From the NCBI RefSeq assembly GCF_023078375.1, contig NZ_CP095554.1, positions 1,178,001 through 1,242,000 on the forward strand: a stretch of DNA of 64,000 nucleotides. Reading direction: 5' to 3'. A model generated the notes under the pieces. The model was given only the letters and a program-made list of their open reading frames with translations. It searched no databases and was not told where the DNA came from. Each line of letters opens with the position of its first letter. Position 1 is the stretch's first letter. The position numbers and the translations under genes were made by a program. This document shows, piece by piece, positions 36,452 through 46,786 of the stretch. The DNA comes from Roseomonas gilardii subsp. gilardii. GTDB lineage: Bacteria; Pseudomonadota; Alphaproteobacteria; Acetobacterales; Acetobacteraceae.

Positions 36452-36461
36452 TCCGGGCCGC

Positions 36462-37166
36462 TCACACCGCCCGCATCAGCCCGCCATCGACCCGCAGGTT
36501 CTGCCCGGTGATGTAGCCCGCCCCCTCGGAGGCCAGGAAGGCCACCGTGGCGGCGATCTCCTCCGCCTTGCCATAGCGCCCCATCGGCACGCTCCCGCGC
36601 CGCTCCCCGGTCTCCGGCAGGCTGTCGATCCAGCCGGGCAGCACGTTGTTCATGCGGATGTTCTCCGCCGCATAGGTGTCGGCGAAGAGCTTGGTGAAGG
36701 CCGCCAGCCCGGCCCGGAACACCGCCGAGGTCGGAAACATCGCGCTCGGCTCGAAGGCCCAGGCGGTCGAGATGTTGACGATCGCGCCGGATTTCTGCGC
36801 CTGCATCACCGGCGTCACCAGCCGCACCGCCCGGATCACGTTCATCAGGTACACGTCAAGCCCCGTGTGCCACTGCTCATCGCTGATCTCCAGCAGCGGC
36901 GCGCGCGGGCCATGCCCGGCGCTGTTCACCAGCACGTCGATCCGCCCCCAGCGCTCCATCGCCCCATCGACGAGGCGCTTCAGCGCCTCCCCGGACTGGT
37001 TGGAGCCGGTGACGCCCAGCCCGCCCAGCTCCCGCGCCAGGGCCTCGCCCTTGCCGGAGGAAGACAGGATGCCGACCCGGTATCCATCCGCCGCCAGCCG
37101 CCGTGCCGAGGCCGCGCCCATGCCGCTGCCGCCCGCCATGACCAGCGCCACCCTCTCCGTCGCCAT
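36462..37166 (-). CDS. SDR family oxidoreductase lacking the canonical YxxxK motif
   Basis: A 234-residue Rossmann-fold protein. The cofactor motif is ALVMAGGSGMGAASARRLA (a variant of TGxxxGxG), followed by DVLVNSAGHGP (NAG motif) and the catalytic-Ser region GAIVNISTAWAF. Where Y-x-x-x-K should stand, the sequence reads FPTSAVFRAGLAAFTK, with no Tyr and no properly spaced Lys. The C-terminal NVLPGWIDSLPETGERR and GYITGQNLRVDGGLMRAV are normal SDR features. It is therefore probably cofactor-binding with altered or lost dehydrogenase activity. It borders the IS630 insertion, which begins 34 bases beyond its start codon. Confidence 0.82.
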   Translation of the reverse strand: MATERVALVMAGGSGMGAASARRLAADGYRVGILSSSGKGEALARELGGLGVTGSNQSGEALKRLVDGAMERWGRIDVLVNSAGHGPRAPLLEISDEQWHTGLDVYLMNVIRAVRLVTPVMQAQKSGAIVNISTAWAFEPSAMFPTSAVFRAGLAAFTKLFADTYAAENIRMNNVLPGWIDSLPETGERRGSVPMGRYGKAEEIAATVAFLASEGAGYITGQNLRVDGGLMRAV

Positions 37167-37199
37167 GCTTCGCTCCCCGTTCCGGAAAAGCGCAGGCTA

Positions 37200-38248
37200 G
37201 AGTCTGTCAGGTTCAAATAGAAGCATAGCCGGCATGGCGGAGGTATGCGGCGCATTCGTCGGCGGTGAAGGTCAAGAGCAAGTCGCCGATCTTGCGCCAG
37301 GTGGCATCGATGGAGCGTTCATCGGCCTTTCGCAGGAGGGTCTTGAGCTTGGCGAAGACCATCTCGATCGGGTTGAGGTCGGGGCTGTAGGGCGGCAGGA
37401 AGAGCAGCCTGGCACCGACGCTCCGGATCGCATCGCGGGCTGGTTTTCCCTTATGACTGCCAAGGTTGTCGGCGATGACGATGTCTCGCGGCCCGAGGGT
37501 CGGCAGCAGGAACTGTCGCACCCATGCTGTGAAGGACAAGCCGTTGATCGGTCCGTCGATGACGCAGGGGGCGACGATGCGATCGTGCCGCAATCCGGCC
37601 AGGAACGTCAGCGTCTTCCAGTGCCCGTGCGGCACCTTGGCCAGGAGCGGCGCCCCGCGCAGGCTCCAGCCTCGTGTGCGGGTCATGTTGGTCTTCACCC
37701 ATGTCTCGTCAATGAAGACCAGGCGGGCCGGATCAAACCGATGTTGACGGGTCCGCCAACGGGCCCTCAGACGCGCCAGGCTCGGCCGTTCCGTCTCGCT
37801 TGCCAGCAAAGTTTTTTTTGAAGGTGAGGCCTTGGCGGCGCATAAAACGCCAGACCGTGTCATGCGACACGTCGATGCCGCCGGCCTTCAGGTCGGCGGC
37901 AAGTGCCCGCACGGTCCAATCCGACTTCGCCGCAAGGCGGCTGGTCAATGCTTCGGTCGCATCCAGCAGTCTCGGCCGACGATTGCCCCCCACCTTGCGG
38001 GCCGCCAGACCATGCCCGGATCGGGCAAGTTGACCAATCCGTACCGCACTGGCGACCGAGACGCCAAAGCGTTTCGCCGCTTCTCGAACCGTCGACCCAC
38101 CAGCCAACGCAGCTGCCACACGGATCCGCAAATCCAGGGAAAGGGCTCGAGCCATCGCCGCTGGCCTCCCATCCAGCAGCCATCTTGAATCACGGCCGCC
38201 CCGCGTCGCAGAAGTCAATTCTCGATTCAGAAACAATCTGACAGACTC
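37200..38248 (-). mobile_element. IS630-family insertion sequence, complete
   Basis: A 1049-bp element with inverted termini GAGTCTGTCAG at 37200-37210 and CTGACAGACTC at 38238-38248. It is flanked by TA dinucleotides at 37198-37199 and 38249-38250, as expected for the TA-target duplication of IS630 elements. It carries two overlapping transposase frames on the minus strand joined through a run of eight A. Beyond its right end a conjugation gene is truncated, so it marks the left boundary of the low-G+C island. Confidence 0.93.
37213..38236 (-). CDS. IS630 family transposase (two frames, programmed frameshift)
   Basis: The upstream frame (38236 to 37733) encodes the helix-turn-helix DNA-binding part: LRIRVAAALAGGSTVREAAK, RFGVSVASAVRIGQLARSG and SDWTVRALAADLKAGGI. 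The downstream frame (from about 37863 to 37213) encodes the DDE catalytic domain: Asp in RLVFIDETWVKTNM, Asp in DIVIADNLGSHKG, Glu in SPDLNPIEMVFAKLKTLL. The frames overlap at the run of eight A in TTCAAAAAAAACTTT near 37811-37818. There, ribosome slippage would fuse them into one protein, the usual expression mode in this family. No other damage is visible, so the element may be active. The upstream frame probably initiates at the internal Met (MARALSLDLRIR). Confidence 0.9.
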
Positions 38249-38250
38249 TA

Positions 38251-38960
38251 GTCAGCGCACCGGAGGGCCGGCAGGGACGGCCATGCCCGGCCTTGCCGGC
38301 CTCAGCGGGCAGCCAGCGACACAGGATCGCCACGCGGCGTTTCTCAATGGACCCGTGGACCGGCAGACCGTTGTGCCGGATCGCGTCGCGCCGCCGGCAT
38401 CGCCCTACATCCTTCAGGCCGGGGCCGTGATCCCGGCCGCGCTTATCACCGGTGTCCGTTCCGACCTTCCAGGCCAGATCACAGCGCAAGTGACCGAGAA
38501 CGTCTATGACAGCCCGACCGGCTCGCTGCTCCTGATCCCGCAGGGCACGCGCATCATCGGCCAATACGATGACGGCGTGACCTTCGGCCAGCGCCGCGTG
38601 TTGCTGGTCTGGAATCGCCTGCTCCTCCCGGGCGGCCGCTCCATCGTTCTGGAGCGCCTGCCTGGCGCGGACGCCAGCGGTTATGCCGGGCTTGAGGATG
38701 GCGTCGATTATCATTGGGGGGATCTGATGAAGGCCGCAGGGCTGTCCACGCTTCTCGCAGTCGGTTCGGAGCTGGCGACGAGCGACGAGGACCGGCTGAT
38801 CCGCGCCATCCGCGACGGGGCGCAGGATACCGTCAATCAGGCCGGCCAGCAGATCGTTCAGCGCCAGTTGCAGGTCGCGCCGACGCTTACCATCCGGCCC
38901 GGCTTCCCGGTCAGGATTATCGTCACCCGCGACCTTGTGTTCGAGGCGGCAGGAGGTTGA
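38251..38960 (+). pseudogene. trbI: Conjugal transfer protein TrbI (VirB10-like), N-terminally truncated at the IS
   Basis: The frame is open directly from the IS630 edge and encodes the C-terminal beta-barrel domain of TrbI/VirB10: APPASPYILQAGAVIPAALI, TGVRSDLPGQITAQVTENVY, TGSLLLIPQGTRIIGQYDDG, then LVWNRLLLPGGRSIVLERLP and FPVRIIVTRDLVFEA. In an intact gene this is the outer part of the type IV secretion channel core complex. The cytoplasmic tail, membrane helix and proline-rich stalk are missing, so it cannot work. It is a remnant of an integrative conjugative element or plasmid. A Met at 38283 exists but is internal. Confidence 0.88.
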
Positions 38961-38962
38961 CC

Positions 38963-39193
38963 ATGACCAGGCTGAAACTCGGCCCGCTGCCCGACGACAA
39001 GCCCGTCAAGGTGACGGTGGAGCTGCCCGCGCCGCTTCACCGCGATCTGGTCGCCTATGCCGAGGTGCTGGCCGGCGAGAGCGGCCAGCCCATCGCCGAT
39101 CCCGTCAGGCTCATCGTGCCGATGCTGGAGCGGTTCATCGCCACGGATCGAGGGTTCGTCAAGGCACGGCGAGCCATCGCTCGACCCCGTTAG
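38963..39193 (+). CDS. DUF2274 domain-containing protein (conjugative-element accessory)
   Basis: A 76-residue protein, MTRLKLGPLPDDKPVKVTVE followed by LPAPLHRDLVAYAEVLAGES and PVRLIVPMLERFIATDRGF. This is the short DUF2274 protein that regularly follows trbI in Trb-type conjugation clusters. It has a ribbon-helix-helix-like start with a predicted helical body. Role unknown. It begins two bases after the trbI stop, confirming that this segment is the end of a trb operon. Confidence 0.85.
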   Translation: MTRLKLGPLPDDKPVKVTVELPAPLHRDLVAYAEVLAGESGQPIADPVRLIVPMLERFIATDRGFVKARRAIARPR

Positions 39194-39473
39194 GATCGTG
39201 CCGAGTGGGCCGACGGCACAAGTGCCCCATCAGGCATTGCGTTTTGACAAGAACCGGTCAACGTAACGCTGACTTCGTGAATAAGGCATTGTAGTAGCAT
39301 GTTCTTTCCATCTTCTTGTAGTCTGTCACTGATCTGCCGCGGGGTGATTCTCAGAGGGCGGCCGGCCGAAGGGTGGCGTCAGTATCTCGACACATACGGA
39401 AGCAGAGGATAACTCTCGGACGAACTGCTCTCTTCCGTGTATGGCGATGTGGCTGCGATATCTGGCGGACTGA
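39194..39473. other. Leader region of the hsd-prrC operon
   Basis: About 280 bases of lower G+C DNA between the conjugation remnant and hsdR. A TTGACA at 39244-39249 could be a -35 element, but no convincing -10 follows at 17 bases. No terminator, gene or known operator is visible. The promoter of the operon is presumably here. Confidence 0.45.
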
Positions 39474-42440
39474 ATGACAAAAGAAGTTGAGATCGAGCGA
39501 GAGCTCATTAAAAAGCTCGCGGATCTTAAGTATTCGCATCGCGATGGCGTTTGTGATCGAGAGGCGCTTGAACGAAATTTCCGCGAGAAGTTCGAAGCCT
39601 TGAACCGGGTCAGATTGACTGACAGCGAGTTCGAACGGTTACTCGAAGAAATCGTGACGCCAGACGTGTTCGCCACTGCGGAGCGATTGCGGAACTGGAA
39701 TACTTTTGAGCGCGAAGACGGCACTCCGCTGCATTACCAACTCGTCAACCTGCAAGACTGGTGCAGGAACAGCTTCGAGGTCGTCACCCAGCTTCGGATG
39801 AACACGCGGAGCAGCCATCATCGGTACGACGTGATCCTGCTTCTCAACGGCTTGCCGTTAGTGCAGATCGAAATCAAATCGCTACACGTATCGCCTCGAA
39901 AGGCGATGCAGCAGATCATCGATTATAGAAACGATCCAGGGAACGGCTACGGCAACAGCCTGCTGTGCTTCACGCAGTTGTTCATTGTCAGCAATCGCAG
40001 CCAGACTTGGTATTTCGCAAACAACAACAGTGAGCACTTCTCCTTCAACGTTGAGGAGCGGTTCCTGCCAATCTATCGCTGGGCCACTCGTGACAACAGG
40101 AAGGTCGAGCACTTGTCGGATTTTTCCGACCAGTTCTTAGCCAAATGCACCCTCGCTGAAATGATCAGCCGCTACATGGTGCTTATCCAGAATGAGCGGA
40201 AGCTCGTGATGATGAGACCCTATCAAGTCTATGCGGTCAAGGCGATCGTCGACTGCATTCACGAGAACCGGGGCAATGGCTACATCTGGCACACGACCGG
40301 TTCGGGAAAGACACTGACCTCGTTTAAGACGTCGACCCTGCTCAAGGATAATCCCGACATCGAAAAATGCCTCTTCGTGGTCGACCGAAAGGATCTCGAT
40401 AAGCAGACGCGTGACGAGTTCAACCGCTTCCAGCCCGGTTGCGTCGAGGAAAACACGAATACCGAAACCTTGGTTCAGCGGCTGCTGTCCGACGACTACC
40501 GGCACAAGGTGATCGTCACCACGATCCAAAAGCTGGGACTCGCGCTGGACGGGACGAACAAGCGGCAATATCGTGAACGCCTAGAGCCACTGAGTGACAA
40601 GCGCATCGTCTTCATCTTCGACGAATGTCACCGTTCTCAGTTCGGGGAGAATCACAAGGCGATCCGTGAATTCTTCCCGAATGCCCAGCTTTTTGGTTTC
40701 ACCGGCACGCCGATCTTCGAGCAGAATGCTATCGCCGTCCAGGTCGAGGGCCAAGAAGCGCGCCTGATGACGACGGATGAGGTCTTCGAAAAGGAGCTCC
40801 ACGCCTACACCATCACCCACGCCATCGACGATGGCAACGTGCTGCGCTTCCATGTGGACTATTTCAAGCCTGACGGTTCCCCCATCAAGCCGGGGGAGAC
40901 GCTCGCCAGGCGAGCCGTGGTTGAAGCCATATTGGCCAAGCACGACGCCGCCACCAATCAGCGCAAGTTCAATACGCTCTTCGCTACGGCGTCGATCGAC
41001 GACGCCATCGACTACTTTCGGCTCTTCCGCGACGTTCAGGCGAAACGTGATGAGCAGGACGAGGATTTCGTCCCGCTGAACATTGCCTGCGTCTTTTCGC
41101 CGCCGGCCGAAGGCAACCGCGACGTTGCCCAGCTGCAGGAGGATCTGCCCCAGGAGCTGGAGGACAACAAAAAGGAGCCTGGTCGCAAGAAGGCGGCGCT
41201 AGTGGAGATTATCGCCGACTATAACGCGCGCTATGGCGCCAATCACAACTTGGCGAACTTCGATAGCTATTATCAGGATGTGCAGCAGCGGATCAAAGAC
41301 CAGAAATATCCCAACAGCGATCTGCCGCGCTCGCAGAAGATCGACATTACCATCGTCGTGGACATGCTGCTGACGGGCTTCGATTCGGCCTATCTCAATA
41401 CGCTCTATGTCGACAAGAACCTGAAATACCACGGCCTCATACAGGCCTTTTCACGCACCAACCGGGTGCTGAATGATTCCAAACCCTACGGTAACATCCT
41501 CGACTTTCGCGCCCAGCGCGACGCGGTGGACGAGGCAATTGCGCTCTTCTCGGGGGAGGCGCCGGACCGGGCCAAGGAGGTCTGGCTGGTCGATCCCGCG
41601 CCGAAGGTGATCGGGAAGCTCGAGGAAGCTACGCAGAAGCTGACTGACTTCATGGCTGCGCACGAGCTTCAGCCTCGTCCCGATGAGGTGAGCAACCTCA
41701 AGGGCGATGAGGCGCGCGTTGGCTTCATCGAACGTTTCAAGGAGGTCAAGCGCCTCACCACCCAGCTTGATCAGTACACTGACCTGACGCCAGAGCAGAA
41801 GGCGCAGATCGAGGCGCTGATCCCCCGCGACGATCTGCGCGCTTTCTCTGCCCAATACCTGGAAACGGCTAGGCGCTTGCAGCAGGAAAGCCGCAGTAAG
41901 GACGACCCTGTCGATCCCGTTCAGCAACTCGATTTCGAGTTCGTTCTCTTCGACAGCGCACTGATCGATTACGACTATATCATGCGACTCATTGCCCGCT
42001 TTAGCCAGGCTGCGCCGAAGCGACTGAAGATGACGCGAGAGGAACTCATGCGTCTTCTCGCCTCTTCAGCCCGCCTGATGGAGGAGCGTGAGGATCTCGA
42101 AGCGTACATTGCCACTCTGAAAGAGGGCGAAGGGCTGAGCGAAGAGCAGGTCCGTAAGGGATACGAGCATTTCAAAGCCGAGCGTCAGGCGGCCGAGCTT
42201 TCCGGTATCGCCGGAAAGCACGATCTTCCCGCTGAGGCGCTGCAGCGCTTCGTCGATCTGATCCTTGACCGCTACATCTTTGATCCTGACGCGCTGAGCG
42301 ATCTGTTCCGCTCCCGAGGTCTCGGTTGGAAGGCGCGCGCGCGGGCGGAGCTTGCGCTGATGGAAGACATTACCCCGCTTTTGCGCCGCAAGGCCGAGGG
42401 GCGCGAGATTTCAGGACTGGAAGTTTATGAAGGGTATTGA
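39474..42440 (+). CDS. hsdR: Type I restriction endonuclease subunit R (EcoR124/type IC-like)
   Basis: A 988-residue ATP-dependent translocase and nuclease. The N-terminal nuclease site has Asp119 in RYDVILLLNG and Glu133-x-Lys135 in QIEIKSL. The motor has Walker A HTTGSGKT (273-280), the DECH box (383-386), FGFTGTPIFEQNA and the later helicase motif LLTGFDSAYLNTLYVDKNL. The overall pattern matches the EcoR124I/EcoprrI HsdR group, the type to which PrrC nucleases are tied. Its stop overlaps the hsdS start by 14 bases. Base composition and codon use differ markedly from the chromosomal genes around the island. It begins the operon hsdR-hsdS-prrC-hsdM. Confidence 0.95.
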   Translation: MTKEVEIERELIKKLADLKYSHRDGVCDREALERNFREKFEALNRVRLTDSEFERLLEEIVTPDVFATAERLRNWNTFEREDGTPLHYQLVNLQDWCRNSFEVVTQLRMNTRSSHHRYDVILLLNGLPLVQIEIKSLHVSPRKAMQQIIDYRNDPGNGYGNSLLCFTQLFIVSNRSQTWYFANNNSEHFSFNVEERFLPIYRWATRDNRKVEHLSDFSDQFLAKCTLAEMISRYMVLIQNERKLVMMRPYQVYAVKAIVDCIHENRGNGYIWHTTGSGKTLTSFKTSTLLKDNPDIEKCLFVVDRKDLDKQTRDEFNRFQPGCVEENTNTETLVQRLLSDDYRHKVIVTTIQKLGLALDGTNKRQYRERLEPLSDKRIVFIFDECHRSQFGENHKAIREFFPNAQLFGFTGTPIFEQNAIAVQVEGQEARLMTTDEVFEKELHAYTITHAIDDGNVLRFHVDYFKPDGSPIKPGETLARRAVVEAILAKHDAATNQRKFNTLFATASIDDAIDYFRLFRDVQAKRDEQDEDFVPLNIACVFSPPAEGNRDVAQLQEDLPQELEDNKKEPGRKKAALVEIIADYNARYGANHNLANFDSYYQDVQQRIKDQKYPNSDLPRSQKIDITIVVDMLLTGFDSAYLNTLYVDKNLKYHGLIQAFSRTNRVLNDSKPYGNILDFRAQRDAVDEAIALFSGEAPDRAKEVWLVDPAPKVIGKLEEATQKLTDFMAAHELQPRPDEVSNLKGDEARVGFIERFKEVKRLTTQLDQYTDLTPEQKAQIEALIPRDDLRAFSAQYLETARRLQQESRSKDDPVDPVQQLDFEFVLFDSALIDYDYIMRLIARFSQAAPKRLKMTREELMRLLASSARLMEEREDLEAYIATLKEGEGLSEEQVRKGYEHFKAERQAAELSGIAGKHDLPAEALQRFVDLILDRYIFDPDALSDLFRSRGLGWKARARAELALMEDITPLLRRKAEGREISGLEVYEGY

Positions 42441-43667
42441 AACCAACGGCCCGGCCCCCCGCCTGCGTTTTCCTGAGTTCCGCGATGCGGGACCGTGGGA
42501 GGTGAAGCGATTGGGGGAGATTGGAACGATCATTAAGGGCAAAGGAATCTCCAAGTCCGACATCAAACCGGACGGAGCATCGCCGTGCATCCGCTACGGA
42601 GAGCTTTACACCTTTTATAGCGAAGTCATTAGTGAGGTAGCTTCGCGCACTGACGCCGATAATCTCGTTCTCAGTGAGGAAGGCGATGTAATTATTCCGG
42701 CATCTGGAGAGACGAAAGAAGACATTGCGACGGCCTCCTGTGTTACAAGAAGGGGGTCGCGTTAGGGGGCGACCTCAACATTTTTCGATCGCCTTTGAAC
42801 GGACCATTTCTTGCCTATTATGTGCGCGGAAATCTGCAATCGGAAATTAGCAAGGTTGCGCAGGGTGATTCGGTTGTCCACCTTTACCCGGCGCAGCTCG
42901 AAAGGCTGCAACTTGCGGTTCCGCCTACGCTGGGCGAACAGAAAAAGATCGCCGATTGCCTCACGTCGCTCGACGATCTGATCCAGGCAGAAGGCGAGCA
43001 GTTGGCGTCGCTGAAGGATTACAAGCGCGGCCTTATGCAGAAGCTTTTCCCCCGCTCTGATGAGGCTACCCCTCGCCTGCGCTTCCCCGAATTCCGCGAC
43101 GCAGGCACTTGGGACGTAAAACGGCTGGGGGAGGTATGTCAAATCAATCCGCCTTCTGGTCCCTTACCAGAAAGCTTCTTTTATATCGATTTAGAGTCTG
43201 TTGTCTCTGGGGAGTGGATACTCAGGAAGAGAATTTTTCGCGATGCTGCCCCTAGCCGAGCGCAGCGTATACTTGAATCGGGGGACATCATTTTCCAGAT
43301 GGTTCGCCCCTATCAGAAAAACAATCTGCTTTTTACATCGGAAGTCGGGCAAGAATACGTTGCATCGACAGGTTATGCTCAACTCCGAGCTAAAGACTCG
43401 AGCAGTTTTTTATATCAATTGGTCCACACCGAATCATTCACGAACGCGGTTTTGGAGAAGTGCACTGGTTCAAACTACCCTGCTATCAGCTCTTCCGATC
43501 TCGCGGAAGTGTGGGTTTCCGTTCCCGGTCTTCCTGAACAACAAAAAATCGCCGACTGCCTCACCGCGCTCGATGAGTTAATCAGGGCACAAAGCGGAAG
43601 GATCAAGGCGCACAAGGGCCACAAGCGCGGGCTGATGCAGCAGCTTTTCCCGCAGGAAGTAGGTTGA
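42427..43667 (+). pseudogene. hsdS: Type I restriction specificity subunit S, apparent frameshift in first target-recognition domain
   Basis: HsdS supplies DNA sequence recognition for both methylation and restriction. Two half-repeats are visible. Each starts PRLRFPEFRDAG-x-W-x-VKRLGE (near 42457 and 43070) and each ends in a conserved helix, IADCLTSLDDLIQAEGEQL and IADCLTALDELIRAQ, followed by KRGLMQ-K/Q-LFP. The first frame stops at 42765 after IATASCVTRRGSR. The natural continuation KKGVALGGDLNIFRSP is one frame over. One missing base between about 42738 and 42752 accounts for this. If real, no functional S is made as one chain; if a sequencing error, the gene is about 413 residues and normal. 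Confidence 0.88.
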
Positions 43668-43670
43668 GCC

Positions 43671-44798
43671 ATGGCGGATGCGCAGACCTTCGACACGCTC
43701 GAGACGCTTGCCGCCCACCTGCGGCAAGAGATCGAGGGGAAGAACAAGAAATGTACCCTGATCTTCGCCCATAACGGCACCGGTAAGACGCGGCTGTCGA
43801 TGGCGTTCAAGGAGCTCGGCAAGCTGCGTGACGACGACGGCGCGGTAACAGCCCGTGACACGCTCTATTTCAACGCCTTCACCGAAGACCTCTTCAACTG
43901 GGACAATGACCTGGAAAACGACCGCGACCGCGTGCTGCGGTTGAACACGGCTTCTGCCTTCTTCAATGGCCTTGCCGAGCTGGAGATGGAAAACCGCATC
44001 CGCCCGGTGCTGCGCCGTCATGCCGACTTCGACTTCCAGATCGACTATGCGCAGGGTACGGTCCTGTTCTGGCGCGAGACGGTGAAGAACGCCGAGGGTG
44101 AAGATGTGCCTGTGCCTATCAAGATCTCGCGCGGCGAGGAAAACATCTTCATCTGGTGCTTCTTCCTGGTCGTGGCCCAGCTCGCCATAGATGCTCAGGA
44201 GGCCTATGACTGGGTGAAATACCTCTATATCGATGACCCTATCTCCTCGCTTGACGAGAACAACGCCATTGCCGTTGCTGCGCATCTGGCACTGATGCTG
44301 AAGGGGCAAGACCGGCTGAAGGCGGTGGTCTCCTCCCATCACACGCTATTTTTTAACGTGCTGTGCAACGAATTGAGCAAGCCTTGGCAGTTTTTTCTGA
44401 GCCGAGATAGTGCCGGCTGGCAGCTGCGCGACACGGGCCAGACGCCGCGGTTCTACCATGTCGCAATGCTGAAGGACCTGTACGAGGCCGCGCGGTCGGG
44501 CAGGCTTTACACCTATCACTTCACAATCTTGCGCAGCATCATGGAGAAAACTGCAACCTTTCACGGTTTCAGCAATGTGGGCGATGTGATGAAGCGTGAC
44601 GCAGACGATGAGGACGGTAGGCTTCATTTTCGCTACGTCCAGCTTTTGAGTCATGGGGGCTATTCTTTGTTCGAGCCTGCCGAAATGTTGCCGGAGAACA
44701 AGGACATCTTTCGCAAGATACTCGAGAACTTCATGAATGATTATCGCTTTAATCCCGAGCTGTTTCCGGCGGCCGAAGCAGAAGGAGCCGTCGTATGA
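43671..44798 (+). CDS. prrC: PrrC-family anticodon nuclease
   Basis: A 375-residue protein that by family cleaves the tRNA-Lys anticodon loop when the partner restriction enzyme is disabled, for example by a phage inhibitor. The N-terminal NTPase has Walker A AHNGTGKT (33-40), the PrrC-typical LYFNAFTEDLFNWDNDLEND (65-84), the SRGEE signature (153-157) and Walker B LYIDDPISSLDENN (185-198). The C-terminal nuclease domain has YHFTILRSIMEKTATF, giving Arg288-x3-Glu292, and His328 in LLSHGG. This corresponds to the Arg-x3-Glu...His catalytic triad of E. coli PrrC (Arg320, Glu324, His356). Length is close to PrrC (396). It lies between hsdS and hsdM and overlaps the hsdM start by four bases. Alternative: the related, longer RloC family, excluded by the missing zinc-hook coiled coil. 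Confidence 0.9.
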   Translation: MADAQTFDTLETLAAHLRQEIEGKNKKCTLIFAHNGTGKTRLSMAFKELGKLRDDDGAVTARDTLYFNAFTEDLFNWDNDLENDRDRVLRLNTASAFFNGLAELEMENRIRPVLRRHADFDFQIDYAQGTVLFWRETVKNAEGEDVPVPIKISRGEENIFIWCFFLVVAQLAIDAQEAYDWVKYLYIDDPISSLDENNAIAVAAHLALMLKGQDRLKAVVSSHHTLFFNVLCNELSKPWQFFLSRDSAGWQLRDTGQTPRFYHVAMLKDLYEAARSGRLYTYHFTILRSIMEKTATFHGFSNVGDVMKRDADDEDGRLHFRYVQLLSHGGYSLFEPAEMLPENKDIFRKILENFMNDYRFNPELFPAAEAEGAVV

Positions 44799-46429
44799 CC
44801 GAACAGGACCAAATAAGGCTAGGCAGGACGCTTTGGGCTATCGCCGACGAATTGCGCGGCGCGATGAACGCGGACGATTTTCGCGACTACATGCTGTCGT
44901 TTCTGTTTCTGCGCTACCTGTCGGATAATTACGAGGACGCCGCGAAGGGTGAACTCGATGCGGACTGGCCCGCACTGCCGGCGGGCGACCGTCGCTCGCC
45001 GCTTGCCGTCTGGTATGAGCAGAATCCAGAGGATACGGAGGAATTCGAGACGGTCATGCGCCGAAAGGTACATTACGTCATCAAGCCCGAATTCTTCTGG
45101 AGCTCCATCGCCGAGATGGCTCGGACCCAGAGCGACAAGCTGCTCAGGACCCTGCAAGACGGCTTCAGATTCATCGAAAACGAGTCGTTCTCGTCGAATT
45201 TTCAGGGCCTCTTTTCCGAGATCAACTTGGACTCTGACAAGCTGGGTAGGAACTATGCGCAACGCAACGCGCGGCTATGCACCATCATCCAGAAGATCGC
45301 TGAAGGCTTGGCGGAGTTCCCTAGTGACCGCGACATTCTGGGTGACGCCTATGAATACCTGATCGGCCAGTTCGCCGCCGGTTCGGGCAAGAAGGCGGGC
45401 GAATTCTACACCCCGCAGCAGATTTCTAACATCCTGTCGGAGATCGTGACGTTCGATAGCCAGGACCCGGCATCAGGCAAACGGGCAAAGCTAAACCGCG
45501 TCTACGACTTTGCCTGCGGTTCGGGCTCGCTGCTCTTGAACGTGCGGCGGCACATGGGCAAGCACGGTATCGGGAAGATCTACGGGCAGGAAAAGAACAT
45601 TACTACTTATAATCTTGCCCGAATGAATATGCTGCTGCACGGAGTGCGGGACACCGAGTTCGACATCCACCACGGTGACAGCCTGGAAAACGACTGGGAC
45701 ATCCTGCGCGAGCCGAACCCGGCGAAGAAGATAGAGTTCGACGCGGTGATCGCCAATCCGCCGTTCAGCTACCGCTGGAGTCCGACCGAGGAAATGGCGA
45801 AGGACTTCCGCTTCAAGGACTACGGGCTTGCACCAAAGTCGGCGGCTGATTTCGCCTTTTTACTGCACGGGTTCCACTTCCTCGCTAAGGACGGCACCAT
45901 GGCGATTATCCTGCCGCATGGTGTCCTGTTCCGCGGCGGGGCTGAGAAGAAGATACGTACCAAGCTTCTGAAAGATGGTCACATCGATACGGTGATCGGC
46001 CTGCCAGCCAAGTTGTTCTATTCGACAGGCATACCAGTCTGCATTCTCGTGCTGAAGAAATGCAAGCGGACCGACGACGTTTTGTTCATCAACGCGGCAG
46101 AGCATTATCAGCCTGGCAAGCGACAGAACTCGCTCTTTCCCGAGCACATAGACAAGATCGTCGATACCTATAAGTACCGGAAGGAAGAGGACCGCTATTC
46201 GCGGGTGTTCAGCCTTGATGAGATCGAGAGGGAGCACGACTTCAATCTCAATATCTCCCGCTATGTGAATACTTCCGAAGCCGAGCAAGAAGTCGATCTC
46301 GCAGATGTGCACGGAGAGCTTGATGCCCTTCAACAAAAGATTCAGACAGCCGCGGAGACGCACAACAGGCATCTTGAGGAACTCGGCCTGCCACCTTTGC
46401 CTCTTGGTTTGAAAAATAGTTCGGAATGA
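44795..46429 (+). CDS. hsdM: Type I DNA methyltransferase subunit M
   Basis: A 544-residue N6-adenine methyltransferase that protects the host and, with HsdS, forms the core complex. The N-terminal domain (LGRTLWAIADELRGAMNADD) is the HsdM N-domain. SAM-binding motif I is YDFACGSGSLLLNV (237-250), GEFYTPQQISNIL precedes it, and catalytic motif IV is NPPF (321-324). The C-terminal helical part ends EELGLPPLPLGLKNSSE. It is translationally coupled to prrC by ATGA overlap. This places the nuclease under the same translation control as its methylase, whereas in E. coli EcoprrI hsdM is first in the operon. Confidence 0.95.
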   Translation: MTEQDQIRLGRTLWAIADELRGAMNADDFRDYMLSFLFLRYLSDNYEDAAKGELDADWPALPAGDRRSPLAVWYEQNPEDTEEFETVMRRKVHYVIKPEFFWSSIAEMARTQSDKLLRTLQDGFRFIENESFSSNFQGLFSEINLDSDKLGRNYAQRNARLCTIIQKIAEGLAEFPSDRDILGDAYEYLIGQFAAGSGKKAGEFYTPQQISNILSEIVTFDSQDPASGKRAKLNRVYDFACGSGSLLLNVRRHMGKHGIGKIYGQEKNITTYNLARMNMLLHGVRDTEFDIHHGDSLENDWDILREPNPAKKIEFDAVIANPPFSYRWSPTEEMAKDFRFKDYGLAPKSAADFAFLLHGFHFLAKDGTMAIILPHGVLFRGGAEKKIRTKLLKDGHIDTVIGLPAKLFYSTGIPVCILVLKKCKRTDDVLFINAAEHYQPGKRQNSLFPEHIDKIVDTYKYRKEEDRYSRVFSLDEIEREHDFNLNISRYVNTSEAEQEVDLADVHGELDALQQKIQTAAETHNRHLEELGLPPLPLGLKNSSE

Positions 46430-46548
46430 TGGGTCGGGAGGTAAAGCGTGAAGCAGCGATTGAACGTTCTATCTACGCATCTGACCTGCTCATTCAGCCT
46501 GAGATCTGGGTGCGCCTCCTTTTGAGCAGCAGGGAGTATAGCCGATAA
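46429..46548 (+). CDS. Possible 39-residue ORF coupled to hsdM (speculative)
   Basis: The hsdM stop overlaps an ATG (TGATG at 46427-46431) opening a 39-codon frame, MGREVKREAAIERSIYASDL then LIQPEIWVRLLLSSREYSR. It has alternating charged and hydrophobic residues compatible with two short helices. No homologue is recalled. The overlap favours translational coupling, but short frames like this arise by chance. Confidence 0.25.
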   Translation: MGREVKREAAIERSIYASDLLIQPEIWVRLLLSSREYSR

Positions 46549-46786
46549 GGCATTCGCAGACGCTTATCTGCCGTCGCTGAGTTGGTAGGGGTCAAGGTCT
46601 GCCCCTTATCAGATCATAACCTCTAACTTATGTCGGCATCGGTAGTTGCGCGTCCCCGCATCCAAATCCCCACACAATCACCCTGCATAAACACCCCCCC
46701 CAAGCCATAAACCGGGGGGGTAGCGTTGCGGTTCTGTCAAAAAGAAAACACGACAGCACCCATTCGCCCGTGCAGCATGTGTCGTC
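46549..46786. other. Right edge of the low-G+C island
   Basis: No gene is supported. Near 46687-46723 a run of eight C and a run of seven G are separated by a short A/T-containing loop (AAGCCATAAACC) and could fold into a G/C hairpin. G+C-rich chromosomal sequence resumes with the next gene. I see no attachment-site direct repeat or tRNA fragment at this edge. Confidence 0.4.

Follow-up and report, generated by a model that had tools for sequence, protein, structure and literature searches.

PrrC is a classic guard of a restriction enzyme, and most of the biochemistry in the literature covered here comes from one E. coli protein, EcoPrrC. As far as the portions of the published accounts used here go, its gene is inserted in the type IC operon of EcoprrI, which has the order hsdM-hsdS-prrC-hsdR (PMC3014915, PMC2610378). 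For Asp287 of this protein, a contact with the modified wobble base of tRNA-Lys has been proposed (PMC3014915). Proteins of the family range from 341 to 416 residues, while the related RloC proteins, which share the plan of an ABC domain followed by an R-x3-E...H nuclease, have 658-897 residues, a coiled coil and a CXXC zinc hook (PMC2610378).

A further example is PrrC170 from Klebsiella quasipneumoniae. In the sections of its report drawn on here, the four genes are named in the order HsdR, HsdS, PrrC, HsdM and were cloned with 300 nucleotides before hsdR; the protein combines an ABC ATPase with an anticodon nuclease and is 35% identical to EcoPrrC (PMC11555353). Expression or overexpression of PrrC170 leads to growth arrest, and tRNA sequencing points to tRNA-Lys as the target. 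The system defends against phages T1 and T7, and phage tRNA-Lys overcomes this defence (PMC11555353).

The window, that is, the whole stretch of 64,000 nucleotides of Roseomonas gilardii DNA that was analysed, contains a gene of this family at 43671..44798 on the forward strand. It runs from an ATG to a stop codon and encodes 375 amino acids. The product is a genuine PrrC-family member, as a preliminary description of this DNA had proposed. In a profile search the best match is the PADLOC PrrC profile PDLC02360 (E=5.3e-130, 431.7 bits), aligned over protein residues 5-363 and profile positions 17-349 of 372. Pfam finds the general AAA_13 family alone (38.7 bits; cut-off 36), and no NCBIfam model scores above its cut-off on the protein. 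The sequence has no CxxC, and its length fits the PrrC size class without a coiled coil or zinc hook. Assignment to RloC or to another AAA_13 family is ruled out by the size, by the absence of a zinc hook and by the score of the next PADLOC family, which reaches only E=5.1e-17. The opposite strand of the prrC stretch carries open reading frames of up to 254 aa, which are taken for by-products of high G+C.

The protein consists of two domains. The N-terminal one (approximately residues 5-266) is a Rad50/SMC-like ABC NTPase, and a fold search with a predicted model recovered an ABC head fold for it. On the forward strand it is encoded with the Walker A motif AHNGTGKT (43767..43790, residues 33-40), the PrrC box AFTEDLFNWDNDL (43875..43913, residues 69-81), the ABC signature SRGEE (44127..44141, residues 153-157) and the Walker B motif and D-loop IDDPISSLD (44229..44255, residues 187-195). 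The name of the PrrC box follows the consulted part of PMC2610378; its extent is the present analysis' own reading. The C-terminal domain is a helical anticodon-nuclease domain of HEPN type. Its active-site stretch (44532..44654, forward strand) contains R288, E292, R321 and H328, corresponding to R320, E324, R349 and H356 of EcoPrrC. The motifs, together with R288, E292 and H328, all lie where the preliminary description had placed them. The predicted model of the nuclease domain has moderate confidence, and the fold search barely tested this domain. A sequence search found no PrrC in the PDB, with two chance matches at E=0.4 and none at 0.01.

Conservation was followed in an alignment of 90 PrrC proteins, built from the best 80 of 291 confirmed relatives in the genome collection and others. 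R288, E292 and H328 are invariant throughout this set, and they align with R320, E324 and H356 of a 396-residue E. coli PrrC, which also carries K284, D287 and Y294. N35, G38 and T40 of the Walker A motif are likewise invariant in 90 of 90, K39 is kept in 89, and H223, taken as the linchpin histidine, is a histidine in all 90. The gene is under purifying selection: compared with five relatives, dN/dS is 0.070 against the Gemmobacter locus L012 and rises to 0.157 against L017. The window protein is 33% identical to the homologue that carries EcoPrrC numbering, with which it shares the NTPase motifs, the PrrC box and the catalytic triad (motifs as given in the sections used of PMC3014915 and PMC2610378). 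The spacing from the catalytic glutamate to the histidine is 35 residues, compared with 31 in E. coli PrrC. The earlier statement that all key residues are retained applies to catalysis and to the NTPase, but not to the position of Asp287, the residue of E. coli PrrC linked to the wobble base of tRNA-Lys, which is absent.

Like its E. coli counterpart, the gene is embedded in a type I restriction-modification operon, in agreement with the first description of the locus. The order is hsdR-hsdS-prrC-hsdM, all four genes lying on one strand and either overlapping or 3 bp apart. hsdR (39474..42440, forward strand) encodes a type IC-like protein of 988 aa (Pfam EcoR124_C 197.3 bits, HSDR_N 112.5 bits), and its EcoR124_C domain points to type IC, the class of EcoprrI. 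hsdM (44795..46429, forward strand) encodes 544 aa (TIGR00497 372.7 bits, cut-off 242.75; N6_Mtase 352.9 bits). Of the partner enzyme, EcoR124-like HsdR and HsdM subunits are thus present, and HsdS is frameshifted as sequenced. The start of hsdS lies within the end of hsdR, prrC begins 3 bases past the stop codon of hsdS, and the ATG of hsdM overlaps the stop codon of prrC. Because of these overlaps and the 3-base spacing, expression of the operon genes is probably coupled. Promoter-like sites numbered 3, against 3.5 expected by chance.

The operon lies within a segment (36455..46728) of low G+C. Its content is 0.50-0.61 over the hsd genes, compared with 0.69-0.76 in sampled flanks. The sequences to its left (to 36454) and right (from 46730) align with widely separated places on a single contig of the sister genome G102, which makes acquisition at a synteny breakpoint probable; G159 is uninformative, because the right flank falls at a contig end there. 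The operon adjoins IS-like transposase reading frames (37213..38236, reverse strand; a DDE_3 domain, and an HTH part that scores below Pfam cut-offs) and conjugation-gene remnants on the forward strand (38283..39193), namely a TrbI domain protein at 38283-38960 and a DUF2274 protein at 38933-39193. None of the TrbI, DUF2274 and transposase sequences had a tblastn match in the relatives' loci searched. Within the genus, prrC is an accessory gene: one genome out of 15 carries it. Sampling 200 genomes of the family gave matches in 10, its own genome included, and two of these matches are weak and lie inside 889-aa frames. L010 and L011, with weak AAA_13 matches in frames of that length, were left out of both the 90-protein alignment and the tree set. 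No match was found in phage records.

A tree of the best 80 of the 291 confirmed relatives and added loci separates two clades, with 100% SH-aLRT on the branch between them. Clade A contains the window, the best 80 of 291 relatives, two E. coli chromosomal loci, a K. quasipneumoniae plasmid locus and L003 (86 rows, one a duplicate). Clade B (9 rows) is made up of six loci in genomes of the same family, together with two plasmids of E. coli and one of Klebsiella. Five of the six clade B members were scored against PDLC02360 and reached 338.9-467.3 bits. The tree is a quick version with a long-branch warning for L003, L005, L009 and Kp_L096 among others, so the exact position of L003 is unsure. 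Duplicates of L009 and of L093 were removed from the counts made on the tree alignment.

Gene order follows the same division. It was counted in 83 clade A loci, the best 80 of 291 relatives included, and in six clade B loci; for the three clade B plasmid loci, L094-L096, the order was taken from annotation. In 81 of the 83 clade A loci, hsdM is the next hsd gene and lies at most 1.4 kb downstream of prrC. Of the two exceptions, one runs off its contig and the other, L035, has no hsdM match in the 5955 bases beyond. An HsdS match ends less than 300 bases upstream of prrC in 73/83 of these best-80-based clade A loci, and hsdR is upstream of prrC in 73/83 as well, some of the remaining loci having inserted genes or short contigs. 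In clade B, hsdR is downstream of prrC in all six loci and in the three plasmid loci. The order of EcoprrI is that of clade B, and the window operon differs from it. Arginine at position 321 is found in 84 of 84 clade A rows and in 4 of 6 clade B rows of the set with the best 80 of 291 relatives, the remaining 2 having lysine.

Several members of the two clades have features of their own. In the clade A operon of a Klebsiella plasmid (L097:2967-6754), a TrlF-family ATPase and an AlbA_2/Schlafen-type protein are located among hsdR, hsdS and prrC. An E. coli clade A operon (L092:5793-7223) has an additional 476-aa protein without a Pfam match among the same genes. L026, a clade A prrC operon at 70% identity, lies on a contig whose bin is assigned to a Methanomicrobiales archaeon, which could reflect transfer or a mis-binned contig. 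The clade B operons L094 and L095 are found on E. coli IncY plasmid records, adjoined by a terminase gene (annotated in L094) and Phd/Doc-type genes, and are possibly carried by phage-plasmids.

The two clades also differ at the position of Asp287. Every one of the 85 clade A rows, which include the best 80 of 291 relatives, has a gap in this column; of the 9 clade B rows, 6 have aspartate there, 1 has asparagine and 2 have a gap. Absence of the position is thus associated with clade A but not confined to it, because two clade B rows lack it too. Neither the split nor the absence of Asp287 was found described in the open-access literature searched, which covers part of the PrrC papers, and no priority is claimed.

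Since the position is absent, recognition of tRNA-Lys cannot be transferred residue by residue from EcoPrrC. PrrC170 offers another route. Enterobacterial clade A proteins are 31.6-35.1% identical to EcoPrrC-like proteins, and a clade B Klebsiella PrrC is 46-47% identical to them. PrrC170 is inferred to belong to clade A because its genes have the clade A order and because it is 35% identical to EcoPrrC, according to the parts used of its report. The window protein shares 59% identity with the clade A PrrC encoded on the K. quasipneumoniae plasmid L097. PrrC170 differs from the window locus in its host, and a broken hsdS is not mentioned for it in the sections of the report used (PMC11555353). 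The best guess for the target of the window protein is tRNA-Lys despite the missing Asp287, by analogy with PrrC170.

Alternatively, the nuclease might cut some other tRNA, as the preliminary description had allowed for. The gap at the proposed wobble-base contact in all 85 clade A rows, which include the best 80 of 291 relatives, would agree with this, as would the substrate of RloC, which is not tRNA-Lys in the portion of the account used (PMC3014915). The choice of tRNA-Lys by PrrC170, a probable clade A protein, and the rescue of phages by their own tRNA-Lys (PMC11555353, sections used) argue the other way, as do the two clade B rows that also lack Asp287, and a different target is considered unlikely. 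Genes for tRNA-Lys(UUU) and tRNA-Lys(CUU), at least one of each, are present in the genome, with the loops CUUUUAA and CUCUUAA. These were found with an Rfam tRNA search and ARAGORN on 30 of 49 tRNA loci, so further tRNA-Lys genes may exist.

Taken with the described systems, the preferred reading is an anticodon nuclease of the hsdR-hsdS-prrC-hsdM clade that would be kept silent by a type IC-like enzyme, be released by phages and cut tRNA; its probability is put at roughly 0.78. The Rad50-like ABC NTPase domain would bind nucleotide and gate the C-terminal HEPN-type RNase. R288, E292 and H328, with R321, would then cleave a tRNA, most likely tRNA-Lys, in its anticodon loop. PrrC would be produced together with the type IC-like restriction enzyme, which would normally silence it. 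When a phage antirestriction factor disturbs the enzyme, PrrC would be released, translation would stop and the infection would be aborted. Cleavage, target, silencing and triggering are inferred from characterised relatives, and a role as a second line of defence is likely on the same analogy.

In the available sequence the operon is broken: hsdS carries a frameshift, which is either real or a sequence error. The upstream part (42427..42765, forward strand) encodes 112 aa in frame 1 and overlaps the end of hsdR; the downstream part (42795..43667, forward strand) encodes 290 aa from a TTG in a different frame and contains the second target-recognition domain. Both match Methylase_S. The preliminary description had rightly put prrC between hsdS and hsdM, but hsdS was not reported there as two reading frames. 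Its term "intact back-up" is not supported for this sequence, in which the only HsdS detected is the frameshifted one. All three Pfam Methylase_S matches in the genome are at this locus, with none elsewhere, a search that a very divergent HsdS could escape. Consequently, it is not certain that a complete type I enzyme keeps PrrC silent here: this genome may lack the guarded enzyme, or the frameshift may be an error.

In blastx comparisons the frame changes at 42738..42780 (forward strand), inside the first target-recognition domain, on a G-run and a GC-rich 8-bp hairpin that lies exactly there (42753-42776). Against the unbroken HsdS of L012, frame 1 matches residues 200-301 (83%) up to nucleotide 330 of hsdS, and the second frame matches residues 301-401 (81%) from nucleotide 327. 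The switch is at the same place against L013 and L050 and within about 40 nucleotides against L023, and the upstream piece matches one continuous HsdS of L012, L013 and L050 up to about nucleotide 330. A programmed ribosomal frameshift was set aside: the hairpin is suggestive, but no good slippery site was seen by eye and relatives have a single frame here.

One possibility is that sequencing or assembly introduced the frameshift and that the operon is complete in the living strain. G-runs with GC-rich hairpins are a context where sequence errors are common, and the break falls on one. The two pieces keep 85-87% and 78-81% amino acid identity to L012/L013 on either side of the break, as an intact gene would, and dN is well under dS in both pieces as well as in prrC, hsdM and hsdR. 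With identity and dN/dS in each piece still those of a functional gene, the break either arose recently or does not exist. HsdS is a single frame of 346-451 aa in 74 of 81 relatives with an HsdS match, drawn from the best 80 of 291 relatives and others. Of the other seven, four are at a contig end and three (L028, L030 and L087) have a partial or split hsdS without such a cut, so real breakage may happen. The flank alignment to G102 neither shows nor excludes an error-rich assembly. An error has a serious claim to being the explanation, at somewhat under even odds.

If the frameshift is instead real and recent, the restriction-modification enzyme could not assemble, and PrrC would be an orphan in a locus that is not a working back-up. 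It might be silenced by HsdR/HsdM alone, be poorly expressed or unstable, or be heading for loss. The frame change against L012, L013, L023 and L050, the lack of a second detected Methylase_S and the accessory status of prrC in the genus are consistent with such a break. An orphan is conceivable and might be tolerated: EcoPrrC lacking the Hsd proteins still shows activity, yet it is so labile that its half-life is below 1 minute (PMC3014915, portion used). Conversely, prrC, hsdM and both hsdS pieces show no decay, PrrC alone elicits nuclease activity in E. coli (same source), and overexpressed PrrC170 arrests growth (PMC11555353, sections used). A real break is held only tentatively.

A split hsdS could also work if the 290-aa downstream piece acted as a dimerising half-S subunit, giving a type IC enzyme for a symmetric site that still guards PrrC. 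The EcoR124_C domain of HsdR suits this idea, as do the active truncated S subunits of EcoR124I, EcoDXXI and NgoAV described in the parts used of PMC3874165 and PMC12707154. However, the break is within the first target-recognition domain and not between the two, which leaves the upstream piece incomplete, and the 290-aa frame starts with TTG and has no clear ribosome-binding site by eye. Such an arrangement is improbable. Slightly better placed, yet still doubtful, is a combined proposal: that the hsdR-hsdS-prrC-hsdM clade reads tRNA-Lys through a loop other than the Asp287 loop, and that PrrC here has been selected beside a truly split hsdS, with an incomplete type I enzyme, either HsdR/HsdM alone or a half-S assembly, keeping it silent.

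Two further observations concern the hsd genes themselves. At 42427-43055 of the window, the first HsdS target-recognition domain is related to the second domain of the L012/L013 HsdS (82-83% before the break), a sign of shuffling of such domains between positions. Frame changes are also seen in other members: hsdR of L012 (3826-6787) matches in two frames, and hsdS of L087 (3397-4594) is split.

In most respects this is an ordinary, widely spread defence locus with a PrrC of a kind already known. Its interest for the family lies in the two clades, whose split goes with gene order. Because one clade (85 rows, the best 80 of 291 relatives included) lacks the position of Asp287 throughout and the other lacks it in 2 of its 9 rows, the choice of tRNA can be tested between proteins with a common catalytic core. 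If the break in hsdS is real, the strain would be a natural test of what is required to keep PrrC silent.
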